Assembly: GCA_015063605.1 (NCBI GenBank)
Contig: SVTV01000003.1
Location: 1 to 64,000, forward strand
DNA length: 64,000 nucleotides
Reading direction: 5' to 3'
Source: Oscillospiraceae bacterium
Lineage (GTDB): Bacteria; Bacillota; Clostridia; Oscillospirales; SIG627
The translations under genes were made by a program, and so were the position numbers. The notes beneath the pieces are model-generated. The model saw only the letters and a list, made by a program, of their open reading frames with translations. It ran no database searches and was not told where the DNA came from. Below are positions 17,539-35,998 of the stretch, one piece after another (positions within the stretch are counted from its first letter, which is position 1; each line of letters begins with the position of its first letter).

Positions 17539-18924
17539 TTATCCCAATGCACATTCTCCCTGCGCCTTCATTCTCTTTCTTATTTCAAAGAAGCACATTA
17601 CATAATGAACGCATCCCGTCACGAACCAAGTTATCGGATATGATACAAACAGCGATTCGGGAGTGCCGAAATATGCAAAGACCGTATATACCCAGACAAC
17701 ACGCAATGCGCATGAGCCGATAAGTGATACAAGAGTCGGAACGAGTGACTTTCCCAAGCCTCTCATTATACCGCTTCCCACATCCATAAGACCGCAAATA
17801 AAGTGAGGAAGACTTATAAATGCCAATCTCATGACACCGTATCCTATCGCTTCCGGATTCTCGGGAGCGTATATACTGAGCAGAGGCTCACCCAAAAGAT
17901 ATATACCCACTCCGAAAAAGAGTCCGAGAACGGTAACGCAGGATACACACATGAATACGCATTTCACAAGTCTTTTGTAATTCTTCGCACCCTCGTTCTG
18001 ACCGACAAATGTAATAGCCGCCTGATACATAGAGTTCTGAATAACGTATGAATATCCCTCTATATTGCTTGCCGCCGTATTTCCCGCAACGAACACCTTT
18101 CCGAAGGAATTGATCGATGATTGAATAAGGACATTGGACACCGCAAACAAAGTGGATTGAATACCTGCGGGAAGTCCCAAAGCAAGAATTCTCTTAAGCT
18201 TTGCAATATCGATACGCAGGCTTTTAATCTCTAACCTGCAAACGCCGTCCGTCTTCATCATAAAGGATATTATCAGCGCACATGATACCCATTGTGAAAC
18301 AGCCGTGGCAATTCCCACGCCGACTGCTCCGAGATGAAACACAAGAACCATGATAAGATTCAGAACAACATTGATAACGCCCGCAACGCTCAAAAATCCC
18401 AAGGGACGTACAGTGTCTCCCGAAGAACGAAGTATGGCGGCACAGTAATTGTACACCATACACGCAGGCATTCCGCAGAAATATGCGATCATATACAGCA
18501 CAGCTTCATCAAGAACAGCCGCATCAGTTCCCATCAGGACAAGGAGAGGACGAGCCGCCGTAATTCCCAGAACGGTTACCACAGCCCCCGCTGCCACAGC
18601 GGCAACAACGGAGGTATGCACCACCTTTTTCACATCTTCATATTGCTTTGCCCCTATTCCGTGAGCCACGCAAACACCGGCGCCTATGGAAAGTCCCATA
18701 AAAAGATTTACAAGAAGGTTTATGAGCGAGCCGCATGAGCCCACAGCCGCAAGAGACGTTTCACATTCCTCGGGAGTAGCACCTCCCCATCTTCCCACAA
18801 CGATTATGTCCGCAGTATTAAAAAGAAGCTGCAGCACAGATGTAGCTATAAGAGGAAGAGCGAACATCAGAAGCTGAGGCAAAAGTGCGCCTTCCGTAAA
18901 ATCACGAGCTTTTCTTTTATCCAT
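17539..18924 (-). CDS. MATE family efflux transporter (copy 1)
   Basis: 461 residues with about 12 predicted membrane helices and the inverted two-bundle MATE pattern. N-terminal motif FALPLIATSVLQLLFNTADI and VGRWGGATPEE are typical of clostridial MATE proteins. These antiporters use Na+ or H+ gradients to export drugs or metabolites. It begins 12 bp after the stop of a closely similar MATE gene, so the two arose by tandem duplication and are cotranscribed. No ligand can be inferred. Confidence 0.93.
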   Translation of the reverse strand: MDKRKARDFTEGALLPQLLMFALPLIATSVLQLLFNTADIIVVGRWGGATPEECETSLAAVGSCGSLINLLVNLFMGLSIGAGVCVAHGIGAKQYEDVKKVVHTSVVAAVAAGAVVTVLGITAARPLLVLMGTDAAVLDEAVLYMIAYFCGMPACMVYNYCAAILRSSGDTVRPLGFLSVAGVINVVLNLIMVLVFHLGAVGVGIATAVSQWVSCALIISFMMKTDGVCRLEIKSLRIDIAKLKRILALGLPAGIQSTLFAVSNVLIQSSINSFGKVFVAGNTAASNIEGYSYVIQNSMYQAAITFVGQNEGAKNYKRLVKCVFMCVSCVTVLGLFFGVGIYLLGEPLLSIYAPENPEAIGYGVMRLAFISLPHFICGLMDVGSGIMRGLGKSLVPTLVSLIGSCALRVVWVYTVFAYFGTPESLFVSYPITWFVTGCVHYVMCFFEIRKRMKAQGECALG

Positions 18925-18936
18925 TTTTATAAAACC

Positions 18937-20349
18937 TCAATTCAAAACACGTTTATTCGCAATAGCATCTTCACGTCTGCTCTTTCTTATAGTAAAGAAG
19001 CACATTATGTAATGAGCAAGAGACGTTATTATCCATGTAACGGGATATGAAAGATACAATATCTCGGGAGTGGGATACATGGCAAATACCGTATATATCC
19101 ATACGATACGCAGAGCACACGAGCCGAGAAGCGACACTATCATAGGAGTGACAGCCTTACCCATGCCGCGCATGACACCGCTTCCAACCTCCATAAGACC
19201 GCACAAAAAGTATGTACCGCAAACAAATGCAAGCCTTATCATCCCGTATTCTATCGCCTCGGGATTTTCGGGAATGAATATCTTCAGAAGCGTTTCTCCA
19301 AAAAAGCATACACCGCTTCCAAGCAACACACCGACGACTGTTACGACAACGGTGCAGAGCACGACCACTCGTATAAGTCTGTCGTATTTTTTCGCACCGA
19401 GATTTTGTCCCACAAAGGTCAGCGCCGCATGATAAAGTGCATTCTGACTTACATATACATATCCGTCAAGGTTACTCGCAGCGGTAGCACCTGCCACAAA
19501 TACCTTTCCGAAGGAATTGACCGAGGTCTGAATAAGAACATTGGATATTGAAAACAACGAGGATTGCAATCCTGCGGGAAGCCCTAAGAAAATTATTCTT
19601 TTAAGCTTCGCCTTGTCTACCTTCATCTTGCTTAATTCTATCTTACACACACCGTCTGTGCCCATCATGAATATCACTATCAGAATACAAGATACCCATT
19701 GAGAAGCCGCAGTAGCGATACCGACACCGACGGCGCCCAAGCGGAACACAAGTACCATTATAAGATTGAGAACAACATTCACAACACCGGCAACACTCAA
19801 AAATCCCAAAGGACGTACCGTGTCACCCGCTGAACGGAGCATAGTGGCACAGTAATTATAGACCATGCACGCAGGCATTCCGCAGAAATAAGCTCTCATA
19901 TACATGGAAGCCTCGCCTACAACATCAGGATCGGTGCCCATCATTGTGAGAAATGTCTCCGCACCCGCAATACCTATGACCGTGACAGCGATACCGCAGA
20001 AGAGAGATGTTATTACCGCAGTATGAACCACCCTTGAAACATCCTCGTACTGCTTTGCTCCTATTCCGTGAGCAACACATACTCCCGCACCTACGGATAA
20101 GCCCATAAAGAGATTTATTATAAGATTGACGAGAGCACCGCAGGAGCCTACGGCAGCAAGGGATATCTCACACTCTTCGGGAGTTGAGCCTCCCCACCTT
20201 CCGACAACAACGGTATCGGCGGTATTAAACAGCAGCTGCAGCACAGAGGTAGCTATCAACGGCAAAACAAACATAAGTATCTGAGGAAGGAGCGCTCCCT
20301 CCGTAAGATCACGTACCTTTTTCGCATTCGCAGACGATGATGTGGGCAT
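18937..20349 (-). CDS. MATE family efflux transporter (copy 2)
   Basis: 470 residues from ATG 20347-20349 (MPTSSSANA...), with GGAGAG 11 nt upstream; the in-frame GTG 12 nt earlier overlaps that ribosome site. About 12 membrane helices. It matches the neighbouring copy nearly word for word in many stretches (VGRWGGSTPEECE, AYFCGMPACMVYNYC, GFLSVAGV), so they are recent paralogues; the differing N-terminal tail and scattered substitutions may reflect different substrates. It is the promoter-proximal gene of the pair. Confidence 0.93.
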   Translation of the reverse strand: MPTSSSANAKKVRDLTEGALLPQILMFVLPLIATSVLQLLFNTADTVVVGRWGGSTPEECEISLAAVGSCGALVNLIINLFMGLSVGAGVCVAHGIGAKQYEDVSRVVHTAVITSLFCGIAVTVIGIAGAETFLTMMGTDPDVVGEASMYMRAYFCGMPACMVYNYCATMLRSAGDTVRPLGFLSVAGVVNVVLNLIMVLVFRLGAVGVGIATAASQWVSCILIVIFMMGTDGVCKIELSKMKVDKAKLKRIIFLGLPAGLQSSLFSISNVLIQTSVNSFGKVFVAGATAASNLDGYVYVSQNALYHAALTFVGQNLGAKKYDRLIRVVVLCTVVVTVVGVLLGSGVCFFGETLLKIFIPENPEAIEYGMIRLAFVCGTYFLCGLMEVGSGVMRGMGKAVTPMIVSLLGSCALRIVWIYTVFAMYPTPEILYLSYPVTWIITSLAHYIMCFFTIRKSRREDAIANKRVLN

Positions 20350-20387
20350 TTTTCTTATCACTCTCCGTAATTTTTATCCATTTATGC

Positions 20388-27101: not shown

Positions 27102-27524
27102 TCACATATTTTTGTAATTATCAAAATATTTCTTTTTTTCCGTAGATAATGAGTTGTACATTTCTTCATACACCTCTTCAATAACTTTATTTACTTCAGT
27201 ATAAGCGTATACCCCCGTGTACCAACTGCACTCATCCATTCTTTTTTCAATCCTTTGCCATAAATGCATTAAATTGTATTCATATAAGCTTTCCGAAGCT
27301 TTGACTAAAGACTCGATATACTCTACAGCATGATCGGATAATTTCTTGCAGCGTAATATTTTTAATATGTATTTTTTTAAAATTGTATAATTTACTCCGG
27401 GAACATACATATCATCGAAAATTTTGCTTTCTATACTGTTTAAAACCGCTTTTTCAACGGCTTTTCCAAGTAGTTTCCATGCCACACCAATTATCACAAA
27501 GCAAACAAAGAATTCCGTCAACAT
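27102..27524 (-). CDS. small membrane protein of unknown function
   Basis: 140 residues from ATG 27522-27524 (MLTEFFVCFVIIGVAWKLL), with GAGGAG about 9 nt upstream; the longer in-frame reading begins inside the promoter. One hydrophobic N-terminal helix (about 4-20) followed by about 115 mostly helical, charged residues with no motif I recognise (YKNM at the C-terminus). AT-rich codon use (Leu TTA/TTG, Lys AAA) separates it from the EEP gene next door. It is divergent from a Cro/CI-type regulator and shares its control region, like a regulator-controlled single-gene cassette. Confidence 0.75.
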   Translation of the reverse strand: MLTEFFVCFVIIGVAWKLLGKAVEKAVLNSIESKIFDDMYVPGVNYTILKKYILKILRCKKLSDHAVEYIESLVKASESLYEYNLMHLWQRIEKRMDECSWYTGVYAYTEVNKVIEEVYEEMYNSLSTEKKKYFDNYKNM

Positions 27525-27553
27525 AGCTCTACACTCCTCAAAATATTCAAACA

Positions 27554-27608
27554 ATGATATCACATTTTGAGATAAATGTCAATATCTCATACAGAGATAT
27601 CATATAAT
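27554..27608. promoter_or_regulatory. divergent promoters with a shared palindromic operator
   Basis: Minus promoter: TTGACA (27577-27582), 17 bp, TATCAT (27554-27559). Plus promoter: -10 TATAAT (27603-27608) with a poor -35. Between them lies the palindrome ATATCTC-N5-GAGATAT (27582-27600), overlapping the minus -35 and touching the plus -10. A repressor bound there, most likely the product of 27626, would control both genes. Confidence 0.65.
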
Positions 27609-27625
27609 ATCCTTGAGGTGATATT

Positions 27626-27859
27626 ATGCGCTTAAAAGACTTGAGAGAAGATCACGATATGACACAAAAATTTATCGCGGAGTATCTGCACATAAAGCAA
27701 AATACTTACTCCCAATACGAAAACGGTCAGCGGCAGATTCCTGTTGAGGCGCTCGTTCTTCTTGCAAAATTATATAACACATCCTTGGATTACATTTTGG
27801 AATTAACGGATGTAAAAGAGCCGTATCCAAGGAAAAATAAAAAATCAGACACATTATGA
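27626..27859 (+). CDS. Cro/CI-type helix-turn-helix regulator (copy A)
   Basis: 77 residues forming a single HTH_3 domain: MRLKDLREDHDMTQKFIAEYL, with turn KQNTYSQYENGQR and LAKLYNTSLDYILEL. TTGAGGTGATATT precedes ATG. It resembles the regulator at 27919 closely (LREDxDM, LAxxYNTSxDYxL), so the two are paralogues. Its stop lies inside the first copy of the 60-bp repeat. It probably represses itself and the divergent membrane-protein gene through the palindrome between them. Confidence 0.92.
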   Translation: MRLKDLREDHDMTQKFIAEYLHIKQNTYSQYENGQRQIPVEALVLLAKLYNTSLDYILELTDVKEPYPRKNKKSDTL

Positions 27860-27898
27860 TCGGTGCAGCGAGCATCGTTTGTAATGTGTCTGTTTTTT
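27839..27898 (+). repeat. 60-bp direct repeat, copy 1, with terminator hairpin
   Basis: This stretch recurs at 30258-30317 with only two adjacent differences (CG at 27869-27870, TA in copy 2). It is itself a hairpin: CAGACACATTA (27847-27857) pairs with TAATGTGTCTG (27882-27892), with an inner stem CGGTGC/GCATCG and a 5-base loop, bounded by an A-run and a T-run. The two differences fall in the apical loop, so structure is kept. It can terminate both convergent regulator genes. Confidence 0.9.
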
Positions 27899-27918
27899 AT
27901 ATTAATCAAAGCATTCGC

Positions 27919-28131
27919 TTAATATCTTTTCGGATTATCTGTCTCTCCCAACAAATAATCAATACTTGTATTGTAAAATCTCGCAAGCTTTATCAATATT
28001 GCTGTGGGTATATCATTTTCTCCGGTTTCATATTTCGAATACCCTGTTTGAGACATTCCCAAAATTTTTGCTATTTGAGTTTGGTTCATGTCTTTATCTT
28101 CTCTTAAATCACGAATTCTTGTGTAAGCCAT
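27919..28131 (-). CDS. Cro/CI-type helix-turn-helix regulator (copy B)
   Basis: 70 residues, a single HTH_3 domain: IRDLREDKDMNQTQIAKILG, MSQTGYSKYETGEND, LARFYNTSIDYLLGETD. GGAG precedes ATG. It converges with copy A across the repeat and diverges from the zinc-ribbon operon at 28237, so it is the likely local regulator of that operon. Copy A and copy B have different recognition helices (KQNTYSQYE versus SQTGYSKYE), hence probably different operators. Confidence 0.93.
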   Translation of the reverse strand: MAYTRIRDLREDKDMNQTQIAKILGMSQTGYSKYETGENDIPTAILIKLARFYNTSIDYLLGETDNPKRY

Positions 28132-28155
28132 TTTTTCTCCATGCTTTTTTGAATT

Positions 28156-28210
28156 ATTATAGCCTAATCTAAAATAGGGTATTGACTTTTAACCTGAAAT
28201 AGATTATAAT
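28156..28210. promoter_or_regulatory. divergent control region of the zinc-ribbon operon
   Basis: Plus promoter: TTGACT (28182-28187), 17 bp, TATAAT (28205-28210). Minus -10 TATAAT at 28156-28161 with no clear -35. Two operator-like copies CTAAAATAG (28169-28177) and CTGAAATAG (28194-28202) are 25 bp apart, the second inside the plus promoter, and AATCTA/TAGATT arms (28166-28171, 28200-28205) flank them. Confidence 0.65.
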
Positions 28211-28236
28211 AATAAAAAAACAAAGGAGAAACATTT

Positions 28237-28755
28237 ATGTTTTGCGTTAAATGCGGTAAGGAAGTTCAAGATTTAGGTAAATTTTGTTGCCACTGCGGCA
28301 CTTCAATTTCTCAATGTTCAGATGATAACGTAACCTCAACAAGAGATTGTGAAATCATTATTTATCCAAAAAGACAGACCGGCGTTCTAATACCCAACAA
28401 ATATTATGTATATGTAGATGATATAATGTACATTTGCAAGCCTTCTTCAGAAGAACCTATAAAAGTAAAAGTAACACCAAAAATTCATACAGTAAAAGCA
28501 TCACATTATCAATTGAATCTTAAGAATAAAATTTCATCAGTTGGTGACTTAGCAGAGAACTCTTCGTTAAACGATTCTCTTGCAGGATTTGGATCCATTT
28601 TATCGATTGCAGCAAGCGCTTCGGCAAAAATCACTTCATCAGTAATGGAAAGCAACGAAGGAACAATGCTCGTGGATTTAACGAAAGACAATGTTGTCAA
28701 ATTGAAAGTTACCATGAATGCATTCGGAAAAACTCGTATTATAAAGGAGGATTAA
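28237..28755 (+). CDS. zinc-ribbon protein with beta-rich domain, unknown function
   Basis: 172 residues. The N-terminal zinc ribbon is C3-x2-C6 and C17-x2-C20 (MFCVKCGKEV...CCHCG). The rest has a predicted beta domain (about 45-95) in which YYVYVDDIMY and KVTPKIHTVKAS resemble PEGA-like surface-interaction folds, then an Ala/Ser-rich segment and a C-terminal beta hairpin (DLTKDNVVKLKVTMNAFGKTR). No signal peptide. AAAGGAG is 8 nt before ATG. It is first of three AT-rich genes with gaps of 1 and 4 bp. Function is not known to me. Confidence 0.85.
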   Translation: MFCVKCGKEVQDLGKFCCHCGTSISQCSDDNVTSTRDCEIIIYPKRQTGVLIPNKYYVYVDDIMYICKPSSEEPIKVKVTPKIHTVKASHYQLNLKNKISSVGDLAENSSLNDSLAGFGSILSIAASASAKITSSVMESNEGTMLVDLTKDNVVKLKVTMNAFGKTRIIKED

Positions 28756-28756
28756 A

Positions 28757-29365
28757 ATGTACTGCTCAAAATGCGGAATCGAAATTAATGAAAACAATTC
28801 TTTTTGTCCAAAATGTGGTATTAATCTTCAAAATGAATCAAAAAACTTAACCCCTAACGATAATACAGCTTTATGGGAAAGCACCAGTGAAATAGTAAGT
28901 CCGGATCTTGAAAACATTACAATCGATGTGTATGAAAGTTTCGGTTGGGAACTTAGATCTTCTCAAACAGTTGACAATAAAGACACACATCTCGAAAATA
29001 GATTCGGTACTATCTATTCGGTTACCGAAAGTACAAATTATGTTAAATTGACGTTCCGTCGTAACAAAGCCTTACCGCGAATCAATGAATTACGAGAATT
29101 AGAAGATGAATACCAAAGCTATGAATCTCCAAGAGCGCCGGATTCACCCAATCCTTTGTTACTTATAGGAGGAATTTTATTACTATGTACCTTAACCTTA
29201 TTCAGTGGTTTAGGCGCTATTGGAATTATACTACTTGTAATATATTTTGTGAAGAAATTCAAATATGAGAAAGAGCTCAAAGTTTATTCTTCCCTTGCCG
29301 CCGATAATATTTTACGGAGAGATGAAATCCTCGAAAAAGCGAAAGCAATAATCGACAACATATAA
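28757..29365 (+). CDS. zinc-ribbon membrane protein, unknown function
   Basis: 202 residues. Zinc ribbon C3-x2-C6, C17-x2-C20 (MYCSKCGIEI...CPKCG) has the same spacing as the previous protein, so the ribbons are homologous. A central domain (about 45-120: VYESFGWELRSSQTVDNK, YVKLTFRRNK) precedes two hydrophobic helices (about 131-165, PLLLIGGILLLCTLTLF and GLGAIGIILLVIYFVKKF) and a charged cytoplasmic tail. It starts 1 bp after the previous stop, with GGAGG inside that gene's end. Probably a partner of the products on both sides. Confidence 0.85.
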   Translation: MYCSKCGIEINENNSFCPKCGINLQNESKNLTPNDNTALWESTSEIVSPDLENITIDVYESFGWELRSSQTVDNKDTHLENRFGTIYSVTESTNYVKLTFRRNKALPRINELRELEDEYQSYESPRAPDSPNPLLLIGGILLLCTLTLFSGLGAIGIILLVIYFVKKFKYEKELKVYSSLAADNILRRDEILEKAKAIIDNI

Positions 29366-29369
29366 AATC

Positions 29370-30233
29370 ATGTTAAATATAAGAAAAGCTGAGTTAGTCG
29401 AAAAGGCACTTCTGAAAGCATTTGCTTTTTTTCTATCTTTATTATTAGTATTGTTTGCCATATCGCTCCCTATCGCCTTTAAATATGCATCAAGCGGACA
29501 AACAACTTTCAGTTCATCACTTATTGTAAATTCATTGACGGATATTCTCGGAGACGGTAATTATATTTACATTACTATTATTTCCGGAATCGTTTTTTCG
29601 ACCCTTAAAGCTTTAAATATAATATCGTTTTTTCCTTTTACCGTTGTCACGGTTTTTGATCTGTCATTTACGATGATCTTAAGCTGTCTTTTCGGAGTAC
29701 TGTTTATGACTTGCTCGGTGAAGATAGAGCTTTTCATATATTCTAAAATACTCTTTCTTTTCGGACAAAAATATTCCAAAGCTCTCATAAGTATAATATC
29801 TCCTTCTGCATCTATCTTTTTATTTCTCTTATGTAATATAATATCCGGAGCTATACTGAACTCTTCCGAACCGGTTTTAATTTATATTGCATGTATTATT
29901 TTTTTATCTCTGTTCATACTTACTGAGAAACAGAGTTCTAAGGAGAGATATGGCGGGAACGTAGGTTTTTTCGGAAACCTTTCAATACTCAATGTAGTTT
30001 TCACAGGAGTTTTGAAGGCTGTTTTCACCGGCATTCTTATGTATTTTATTTACTCTATGGGAACAAGGTTCAATAATTCGTCGCTACCATACTTCGCAAT
30101 AGATCTCGCAACAGTATATTACGGTTTCTGGTGCACGATCAATACTTTGGCAGAAGATATAAAAGTGACAAAAAAATTTTATTATTCCGCAGTATCACTT
30201 CTTTCATTTGTTTATCTTTGTGCTTCAGCTTAA
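29370..30233 (+). CDS. polytopic membrane protein, unknown function
   Basis: 287 residues with about seven hydrophobic helices (for example 16-35, 70-110, 118-135, 140-175, 183-195, 215-235, 270-287) and no recognisable catalytic motif. Starts 4 bp after the second zinc-ribbon gene, without a clear ribosome site, so coupled translation is likely. Very AT-rich codon use. It is the last gene before repeat copy 2, which supplies the terminator. With the two zinc-ribbon proteins it may form a membrane complex. Confidence 0.8.
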   Translation: MLNIRKAELVEKALLKAFAFFLSLLLVLFAISLPIAFKYASSGQTTFSSSLIVNSLTDILGDGNYIYITIISGIVFSTLKALNIISFFPFTVVTVFDLSFTMILSCLFGVLFMTCSVKIELFIYSKILFLFGQKYSKALISIISPSASIFLFLLCNIISGAILNSSEPVLIYIACIIFLSLFILTEKQSSKERYGGNVGFFGNLSILNVVFTGVLKAVFTGILMYFIYSMGTRFNNSSLPYFAIDLATVYYGFWCTINTLAEDIKVTKKFYYSAVSLLSFVYLCASA

Positions 30234-30257
30234 CATCAAGAATAAGCAGACGACAAA

Positions 30258-30317
30258 AAAAAATCAGACACATTATGATCGGTGCAGTAAGCATCGTTTG
30301 TAATGTGTCTGTTTTTT
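30258..30317 (+). repeat. 60-bp direct repeat, copy 2, with terminator hairpin
   Basis: Same sequence and orientation as 27839-27898 with two loop substitutions, 2419 bp away. Stem arms are 30266-30276 and 30301-30311, followed by TTTTTTT. It terminates the zinc-ribbon operon. Recombination between the copies would delete regulator B and all three downstream genes cleanly. Confidence 0.9.
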
Positions 30318-34357: not shown

Positions 34358-35998
34358 ATGGTATCAAAAAACGGCAAAAAATGTTTATTTTCTCTTTTTT
34401 CAATAATTCTTGCGTTTTCTTTTCTTCTGACATCCTGTCATTATGAAGAGATACCGCCCCACAGCTTTTCACCCAATTTCACATCGGAATCCAATCCTCC
34501 CGAAGGAAGCCTGACTCCTCCGACAACGGAAGAAGCGCCTAAGACAGAGGAACCTCCCAAAACGGAAGAACCTCCTAAAACGGAGGAACCTCCCAAAACA
34601 GAGGAGCCTCCCGAAACGGAAGAACCTCCCGAAACAGAAGAACCTCCCAAGACAGAGGAACCTCCCAAGACAGAGGAACCTCCCAAGACAGAGGAACCTC
34701 CCAAGACAGAGGAACCTCCCGAAACAGAAGAACCTCCCAAGACAGAGGAGCCTCCCGAAACGGAAGAACCTCCCATGACGGAAGAACCCGAAGAGCCTCC
34801 CTTCTATGTGAAGCGTGACGATGTGGTTTCCACCGCAAAAATCGGTGCTTCGGGAGATATCCTTATCCATACTAAGGTGCGTAACGCCGCTTCTATAGGT
34901 AACGGAGCATTCGATTTTTATCCGATGTTCCAACACCTTACGAATTACGTAACGAAGCTTGATTACTCGGCGATAAATCTTGAATTCTCCGTAGGAGAAT
35001 CGGGCAATTATTCAAGCCTTCCCTTCAAGGTTCCCGCATCAATTCTTGATGCCGTAATGAACGCAGGCTACACTCTCGGACTCACCGCCAACAATCATAC
35101 AAACGACGGTTATTCCGCAGGCTTTTTCAGAACTCTTTCGGAGCTTGAAAATAGAAGCATGGACTATATCGGAACACGCCAAAAGGAAGAGGATAAAAAG
35201 TACATAGTAAAAGAGATCAACGGAATAAAGGTGGGTATGTTCAATTTCACATACGCAGACTACACCTCCGACGGTCTCGTATCCTTAAACGGTATAAAAT
35301 GTACCGCCGAAACAAGTAAGCTTGTAAATGTATTCAACACAAGTAAGCTGAGTCAATTCTATTCCGAAGCGCAAGAAATAATTTCCGACATGGAAAACGA
35401 GGGTGCGGAAGCGATAGTTCTCTTCATCCATTGGGGCAACGAATACGATCTTGATCCGTCATATTATCAGCAGACCATTGCGAAAAAAATGTGCGCACTT
35501 GGCTGTGACGTCATAATCGGCGGTCATCCTCACAAGGTACAGCCCATAGAGATAATAACCGAATCCGCTTCGGGCAATACCTCCGTATGTCTTTATTCTG
35601 CGGGAAACATTCTTTCCAATCAGGTCATATCGGAAATGTACCCCACCCACGGCTGTAAGATCCCCGACAATACCGAGGGCGACCATGTAAGAGAGTGCAA
35701 TGACAACGGCCACACGGAGGACGGAATACTTTTCTCCTTCGAATTCGAAAAATACGAAGACGGCACCGTGGGTATCGGAAAAATAGACGCACTTCCCCTT
35801 TGGTGCTGCCGTTCATACAACAGTGCTGCGGGTAAATACGTTTACCGCATCATCCCTCTCGACAAGACTGTTTCCGATTGGAGCGAATTCGGTCTCACCG
35901 AAAACCAAAAGGAACAAGCCGTAAAGTCATATGACAGAACGATGGAACTTGTTCAAAAGGGTCTTGAAAGATGGAACGGGAAGGAGTATTTTAATTAA
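34358..35998 (+). CDS. CapA family lipoprotein with TEEPP repeat stalk
   Basis: 546 residues. Lipoprotein signal peptide with lipobox LLTSC (C27). Residues about 53-150 are a stalk of 15 hexapeptide units of the form P(K/E)TEEP, acidic and proline-rich, which would hold the catalytic domain away from the membrane. The CapA/PgsA metallophosphoesterase-like domain follows: KIGASGDILIH, NLEFSVG, TANNHTNDGY, IVLFIHWGNEYD and IIGGHPHKVQP, the conserved metal-site motifs. CapA proteins act in poly-gamma-glutamate capsule synthesis or anchoring. GGAG is 6 nt before ATG. No other pgs/cap gene is nearby. Confidence 0.9.
   Translation: MVSKNGKKCLFSLFSIILAFSFLLTSCHYEEIPPHSFSPNFTSESNPPEGSLTPPTTEEAPKTEEPPKTEEPPKTEEPPKTEEPPETEEPPETEEPPKTEEPPKTEEPPKTEEPPKTEEPPETEEPPKTEEPPETEEPPMTEEPEEPPFYVKRDDVVSTAKIGASGDILIHTKVRNAASIGNGAFDFYPMFQHLTNYVTKLDYSAINLEFSVGESGNYSSLPFKVPASILDAVMNAGYTLGLTANNHTNDGYSAGFFRTLSELENRSMDYIGTRQKEEDKKYIVKEINGIKVGMFNFTYADYTSDGLVSLNGIKCTAETSKLVNVFNTSKLSQFYSEAQEIISDMENEGAEAIVLFIHWGNEYDLDPSYYQQTIAKKMCALGCDVIIGGHPHKVQPIEIITESASGNTSVCLYSAGNILSNQVISEMYPTHGCKIPDNTEGDHVRECNDNGHTEDGILFSFEFEKYEDGTVGIGKIDALPLWCCRSYNSAAGKYVYRIIPLDKTVSDWSEFGLTENQKEQAVKSYDRTMELVQKGLERWNGKEYFN
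34529..34795 (+). repeat. in-frame 18-bp tandem repeats in the CapA gene
   Basis: About 15 units with the theme (A/G)A(G/A)ACGGAGGAACCTCCC encode the stalk hexapeptide. Units vary at third positions and between Lys (AAA/AAG) and Glu (GAA) codons, so copy number could change by slippage without breaking the frame. Confidence 0.95.

Follow-up and report, generated by a model that had tools for sequence, protein, structure and literature searches.

Group IIC introns and insertion sequences of the IS1272/IS1182 type prefer terminator or stem-loop DNA as their landing sites, and these elements encode a reverse transcriptase or a transposase. To our knowledge, duplication of a whole hairpin is not known for them. 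Elements that are flanked by att sites and have no recombination module, the cis-mobilizable elements (CIMEs), have been reviewed (PMC5704250). Here, a 64,000-nucleotide stretch of an Oscillospiraceae bacterium genome (GCA_015063605.1, contig SVTV01000003.1, positions 1 to 64,000 of the forward strand), referred to as the window, was analyzed. It contains a gene for a small Cro/CI-type regulator, Hth2, and a divergent payload operon, bracketed by two near-identical terminator hairpins, T1 and T2. The unit between the hairpins (27899-30257) is interpreted as an exchangeable repressor-payload cassette that probably entered at a resident terminator and duplicated it on entry, and the probability of this interpretation is placed at about two in three. 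Computation established that the repeat exists and is unique, that regulator and operator are conserved, that payloads turn over and that one parallel empty site has a single terminator. The broader finding is a cassette family with a constant switch, changing cargo and an occasionally duplicated landing terminator. A search of the open literature, with many subscription papers outside its reach, found no description of host terminators duplicated by small regulator-payload units. The components of the unit and its brackets are as follows.

27836-27898: T1, left copy of the terminator hairpin, between the convergent genes hth1 and hth2
27919-28131, minus strand: hth2, 70-aa Cro/CI-type repressor (HTH_3, 60.0 bits with a cut-off of 23, E 2.4e-16)
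28165-28181: a further operator-like site, TAATCTAAAATAGGGTA, toward hth2, with one mismatch and a chance-level score for the short pattern alone
28182-28210, plus strand: predicted payload promoter, TTGACTTTTAACCTGAAATAGATTATAAT, with the operator at 28190-28206 between the -35 and -10 elements
28237-28755, plus strand: zn1, 172 aa, N-terminal zinc ribbon and a strand-rich domain
28757-29365, plus strand: zn2, 202 aa, N-terminal zinc ribbon, conserved 'FGW' domain and a transmembrane segment
29370-30233, plus strand: mem, 287-aa polytopic membrane protein
30255-30317: T2, right copy of the terminator hairpin, just 3' of mem and before an ECF sigma factor gene

T1 and T2 form a 63-bp direct repeat with a spacing of 2419 bp, and 60 of the 63 bases are equal. 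Two adjacent mismatches lie in the loop and one in the 5' A-tract, while the stems are identical. The homology stops at the hairpin on either side, and none was found beyond the 63 bp. Each copy folds to -29.3 kcal/mol (z of -7.0 for T1 and -8.8 for T2), which was not equalled by any of 200 shuffles. Both are laid out as A-tract, stem and T-tract. Since the A-tract is 5' and the T-tract is 3' of the stem, the hairpins are predicted to be able to terminate transcription in both directions. The Rfam search gave no match. A preliminary description of this locus had reported near-identical 60-bp repeats around a Cro/CI-type regulator and a divergent three-gene operon; the genes are as described, and the repeat was confirmed with a length of 63 bp, the third mismatch being the one in the A-tract.

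A search of the whole genome (2.67 Mb, 61 contigs) found T1 and T2 as the sole two copies, the palindrome also matching its own opposite strand. A dispersed intergenic element, which the preliminary description had named as one outcome that would speak against it, is thereby ruled out. In a 1.08-Mb sample of the same genome, 187 long hairpins were found, and the only other near-identical sets were on contigs C20 and C23. The other hairpin pairs located 0.5-6 kb apart, 144 in number, showed no similarity. Because the pair is unique in the genome and no similar pair exists among the 144, the T1/T2 pair is far beyond chance and belongs to no dispersed family. The sets on the two other contigs were rejected as cassettes. 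The one on contig C20 (L106, G000:C20, 8018-8097 and 15598-15667) is a dispersed-looking 70-bp hairpin repeat, AGCTCTCCC...GGGAGAGC, with partial copies nearby. The one on contig C23 (L109, G000:C23, 4213-4614) is a 90-bp tandem array with a 43-bp hairpin in each unit, upstream of an aminotransferase-like (NifS-type) gene.

An empty site was found for a parallel Hth2 cassette in another genome, G249. Its congener G079 does not have the operator. Both neighbors of the G249 cassette, a homologue of a 333-aa protein and an operon for decarboxylase subunits, are kept in G079 with a single hairpin between them (AAGGCACAGCC-GCTT-GGCTGTGCCTT). The homology between the two genomes is 83%, begins exactly at the right hairpin of G249 and extends into the decarboxylase operon. 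The left hairpin copy of G249 aligns to the same lone hairpin of G079. With one hairpin at the orthologous place in the congener, G249 seems to have gained 951 bp plus one hairpin, and the simplest reading of the alignment is an insertion with terminator duplication.

Hairpins at other Hth2 loci were also compared. Eighteen of 35 loci have hairpins flush to the 3' ends of hth2 and of a payload gene, and three of these 18 have near-identical end hairpins, with similarity scores of 53 (window), 28 (G260) and 20 (G249). When the left hairpin of one locus was compared with the right hairpin of another as a control, a score of at least 18 was reached in 0 of 306 comparisons. The window had been picked for its repeat; when it is left out, the counts are 2/17 versus 0/306 (p about 0.003, computed by hand). 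The hairpins of the window, G249 and G260 are mutually unrelated in sequence, so the duplicated hairpins are judged to belong to the site and not to the cassette. In G249 the hairpin has exactly two copies in the genome when two mismatches are allowed, both flanking the cassette, with identical stems and differences confined to the loop. The duplicated stretch is about 28 bp in G249 and G260 and 60-63 bp in the window. The G+C content of the three bracketed units is 33%, 35% and 33%, versus 41-45% in their surroundings. The gain of a unit between duplicated terminators, as suggested in the preliminary description, thus has genome-specific parallels in G249 and G260, and the related genome without the unit, G079, holds one hairpin where G249 holds two.

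Further hairpin pairs were not accepted as examples. In G067, an FGW gene is found between two related hairpins, but three hairpins are present and two of them have paralogous downstream sequence, which points to gene duplication. The pairs of L196 and L178 are tandem gene duplications. The pairs of L243, L237, L189 and L197 are distant or repeated and were left out of the count.

The regulator and its operator are the constant part of the family. Close relatives of Hth2 are present in 49 of the 295 genomes of the order (57-91% identity, E <= 1e-22), with a patchy distribution. Aligning the upstream regions of 28 promoters revealed a common promoter-operator, TTGACWTTTAACCTGAAAYAGGTTATAAT, in which the palindrome TAACCTGNNNCAGGTTA lies between the -35 and -10 elements. 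A related second site on the regulator side was also seen in the aligned promoters. With one mismatch allowed, a search for the operator pattern in 394 genomes gave 34 sites, which are spread over 32 genomes and almost always single in each, and the reversed control pattern gave 1. As these counts amount to about one operator per genome, Hth2 appears to control its own cassette rather than a regulon. The most likely targets of its repression are the payload and its own gene, with TAACCTGAAATAGATTA in the operator region as the putative binding site. With an Hth2 regulator, an operator occurring once per genome and a divergent variable payload, the unit of the window fits the definition of an Hth2 cassette. 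A relative with 81% identity to Hth2, together with the operator, was also observed on a viral-labelled IMG/VR contig (L330, 3300029305_006423), near a tyrosine-integrase-like open reading frame (ORF) and a Doc/Phd-like pair. This contig is a possible cassette vehicle, or it may carry host DNA at its end.

The payload opposite Hth2 varies by genome and includes FGW membrane proteins, lipoproteins, repetitive surface-type proteins and zinc-ribbon membrane proteins. Similarly, the chromosomal neighbors of the cassettes vary by genome. From the payload of the window, only zn2 has a relative among the other Hth2 payloads, its FGW domain recurring in one cassette, L081; zn1 and mem have no relative among them. 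A hydrophobic segment was found in 23 of 30 first payload genes versus 80 of 221 distant ORFs (p 4e-5). Relatives of zn2 and its FGW domain in other genomes adjoin other Cro/CI-type regulators too. The payload is likely exchangeable and usually made up of predicted envelope (membrane, lipoprotein or surface) proteins. In L178 (G267:C22, from +2508), the payload consists of tandemly repeated surface-type proteins, two of which have an identical terminator at the 3' side. In the window, zn1, zn2 and mem are tightly packed and divergent from hth2 (28237-30233, plus strand). No family match was found for mem and no full-length relative for zn1. The PADLOC defence families gave no match for zn2 and mem and weak partial matches only for zn1. 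Single-sequence structure predictions had a pLDDT of 36 for zn1 and 59 for zn2, too poor for a fold search.

To the left of the bracket, a second divergent unit of a regulator and a membrane-type gene was observed (27102-27859), with its own palindromic intergenic region (ATATCTCATACAGAGATAT).

27102-27563, minus strand: orfA, 153 aa, N-terminal hydrophobic stretch, divergent from hth1
27626-27859, plus strand: hth1, second Cro/CI-type regulator, left of the bracket

The stop codon of hth1 (27857-27859) falls within T1. No relative of orfA was found among the 295 genomes of the order. Because a second divergent unit is present and its orfA is an orphan in these genomes, several cassettes may come to stack at a single site. 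G+C is 33% in the bracketed part versus 43-45% in the flanks, which agrees with the preliminary description of a module more AT-rich than the genes on either side. On the left this description does not hold, since the AT-rich tract (about 27.09-30.4 kb) exceeds the bracket and takes in orfA and hth1 (33%). Elsewhere in the window, 18-bp tandem repeats (34481-34824, 13 registers) were observed inside a PGA_cap capsule-synthesis-type gene (34358-35998). Two adjacent paralogues of 461 and 474 aa (17539-20361) have about 75% DNA identity in aligned blocks and represent a tandem duplication.

Several observations weigh against insertion with terminator duplication. At 15 of the 18 flush-hairpin loci, the end hairpins are unrelated, with best scores of at most 8; terminator duplication is therefore not a requirement or else is eroded with time. 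In G260, the loops are reverse complements of each other, an extra hairpin is located between the left copy and hth2, and the uniqueness of the hairpin holds within the 0.25 Mb checked. The pnp-pyk adjacency of G260 is not kept in two congeners and other family members, and no empty site was found there. The genus of the window has one genome in the collection, so that the insertion in the window itself is inferred by analogy.

The main rival explanation is a site-specific recombinase acting in trans. The hairpins would then be attL and attR of an integrative remnant without an integrase, such as an element like a CIME or an integrative and mobilizable element (IME), or a phage satellite, and the terminator would be attB. 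The unit does lie between direct repeats, Hth2 is similar to repressors of the phage type (RstR, inovirus repressors and the ICEBs1 regulator structure 7t8i), and att-flanked elements without a recombination module are known from the review cited above. One recombinase implies one att core, however, and the three bracketing hairpins are unrelated and placed at different genes. The insertion sites also vary among genomes, and the operators of the inovirus relatives that were checked do not match. In the interval from 15.6 to 41.4 kb, 15 genes were examined and none contains an integrase, transposase, relaxase or recombinase domain, a recombinase elsewhere in the genome not having been searched for; the absence of an integrase had been pointed out in the preliminary description. 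No tRNA gene was found within the window. Taken together, a remnant of this kind is considered unlikely. Later copying or homogenization of the terminators by gene conversion, around a cassette that arrived by illegitimate recombination, would make the repeat uninformative on entry. The 15 of 18 cassettes with differing end hairpins fit this idea, as they suggest that insertion without visible duplication is possible, and tandem gene duplication also yields similar local hairpins (L178, L196). The identity in the window stops sharply at the hairpin, though, a tract of 30-60 bp is short for gene conversion, and homogenization is absent from the 144 other local terminator pairs in the window's genome. 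This explanation is also rated as improbable.

Duplication of an ancestral unit, with hth1/orfA and hth2/payload as the two copies, had been offered in the preliminary description as well. Both units are AT-rich, and in each a membrane-type gene is paired divergently with a Cro/CI-type regulator. Against this, orfA matches neither the bracketed payload nor any other payload nor any genome of the order, and hth1 does not match the bracketed payload; the operator regions of the two units look different by eye; regulators of other families in the order (up to 91%) are far closer to Hth2 than Hth1 is; and the gene orientation is not that of tandem copies. The claim was thus not upheld, and such a duplication is regarded as very unlikely. 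Terminators have a common composition, which could be taken to favor similarity by chance or convergence without a shared history, but the 60/63 identity includes unpaired parts and the sequence is unique in the genome. Of all the explanations weighed, a chance origin is the hardest to credit.

Under insertion at a terminator, the cassette would enter at a resident intrinsic terminator, in the window that of hth1, and the entry would duplicate the terminator hairpin at the cassette ends, so each outward cassette transcript would end in a copy of the same terminator. By comparison with Cro/CI-type switches, Hth2 dimers on the operator would hold the payload, and probably hth2 too, at a low level until a signal is received. 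The two zinc-ribbon proteins and the polytopic membrane protein of the window would most likely act in the envelope. The mode of entry would not be encoded in the cassette; template switching at a stalled fork, or recombination with a donor, is our conjecture. A hairpin-centered process would be favored over a transposase with a fixed stagger because the duplicated unit is the hairpin, with a length of about 28-63 bp. As a tentative generalization, non-autonomous repressor-payload cassettes could possibly spread in Clostridia-type bacteria by terminator insertion and hairpin duplication, through a hairpin-directed and perhaps replicative process, with the host terminator supplying both ends.

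If this is true, it would suggest a simple route by which bacteria gain and exchange small regulated units that have no integrase or transposase of their own. The terminator would be a neutral intergenic landing site, and its duplication would insulate the newcomer from its neighbors at once. A widespread regulator/operator pair with ever-changing predicted envelope cargo is now defined, and occupied and empty sites can be counted in sister species. The entry mechanism is thereby open to direct testing by comparative genomics.

The cassette was compared with known systems. No inverted ends were found besides the hairpins and the duplication length varies, which is not the pattern of a DDE-type transposon. 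Hth2 scored 54.6 bits against the RstR family model (NF041951), below the curated cut-off of 80, and it matches the ICEBs1 regulator structure 7t8i. Its identity to inovirus repressors reaches about 67% in unclassified phage records and about 55% in annotated ones; the phage repressors with 47-67% identity come from inovirus genomes (rodent faeces) and unclassified phage clones (human faeces). The search of phage and plasmid DNA gave a single weak match, 114 bp long and in the repressor gene of an inovirus, and none in plasmids, and in viral contigs, the repeat core and the membrane protein are absent. An inovirus origin of the whole cassette was rejected, since the operators of the two phage relatives examined differ. 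Like the RstR/ImmR switches, the cassette encodes a small HTH_3 repressor opposite divergently oriented genes and has a palindromic operator over the promoter. Unlike them, it has no replication, morphogenesis, integrase or conjugation genes, and its payloads are single envelope-type genes that vary by genome. The likeness to CIMEs and other integrase-less remnants is a short, recombinase-free unit between direct repeats, 3' of a resident gene. In the window the flanking direct repeats are present, whereas a shared att core and a matching recombinase were not found, the latter among the nearby genes tested; genome-specific terminator hairpins take the place of a common att core, and the sites vary. 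With integron cassettes, the Hth2 cassette shares a small exchangeable cargo bounded by hairpins. It differs in having ordinary A/T-tract terminators and its own regulator and promoters; no attC boxes (GTTRRRY/RYYYAAC) were seen by eye in the repeat sequences, and no integrase is nearby. From the hairpin-targeting introns and insertion sequences, the cassette differs in that neither a reverse transcriptase nor a transposase is encoded, and it resembles them in the use of a terminator or stem-loop as the insertion site.

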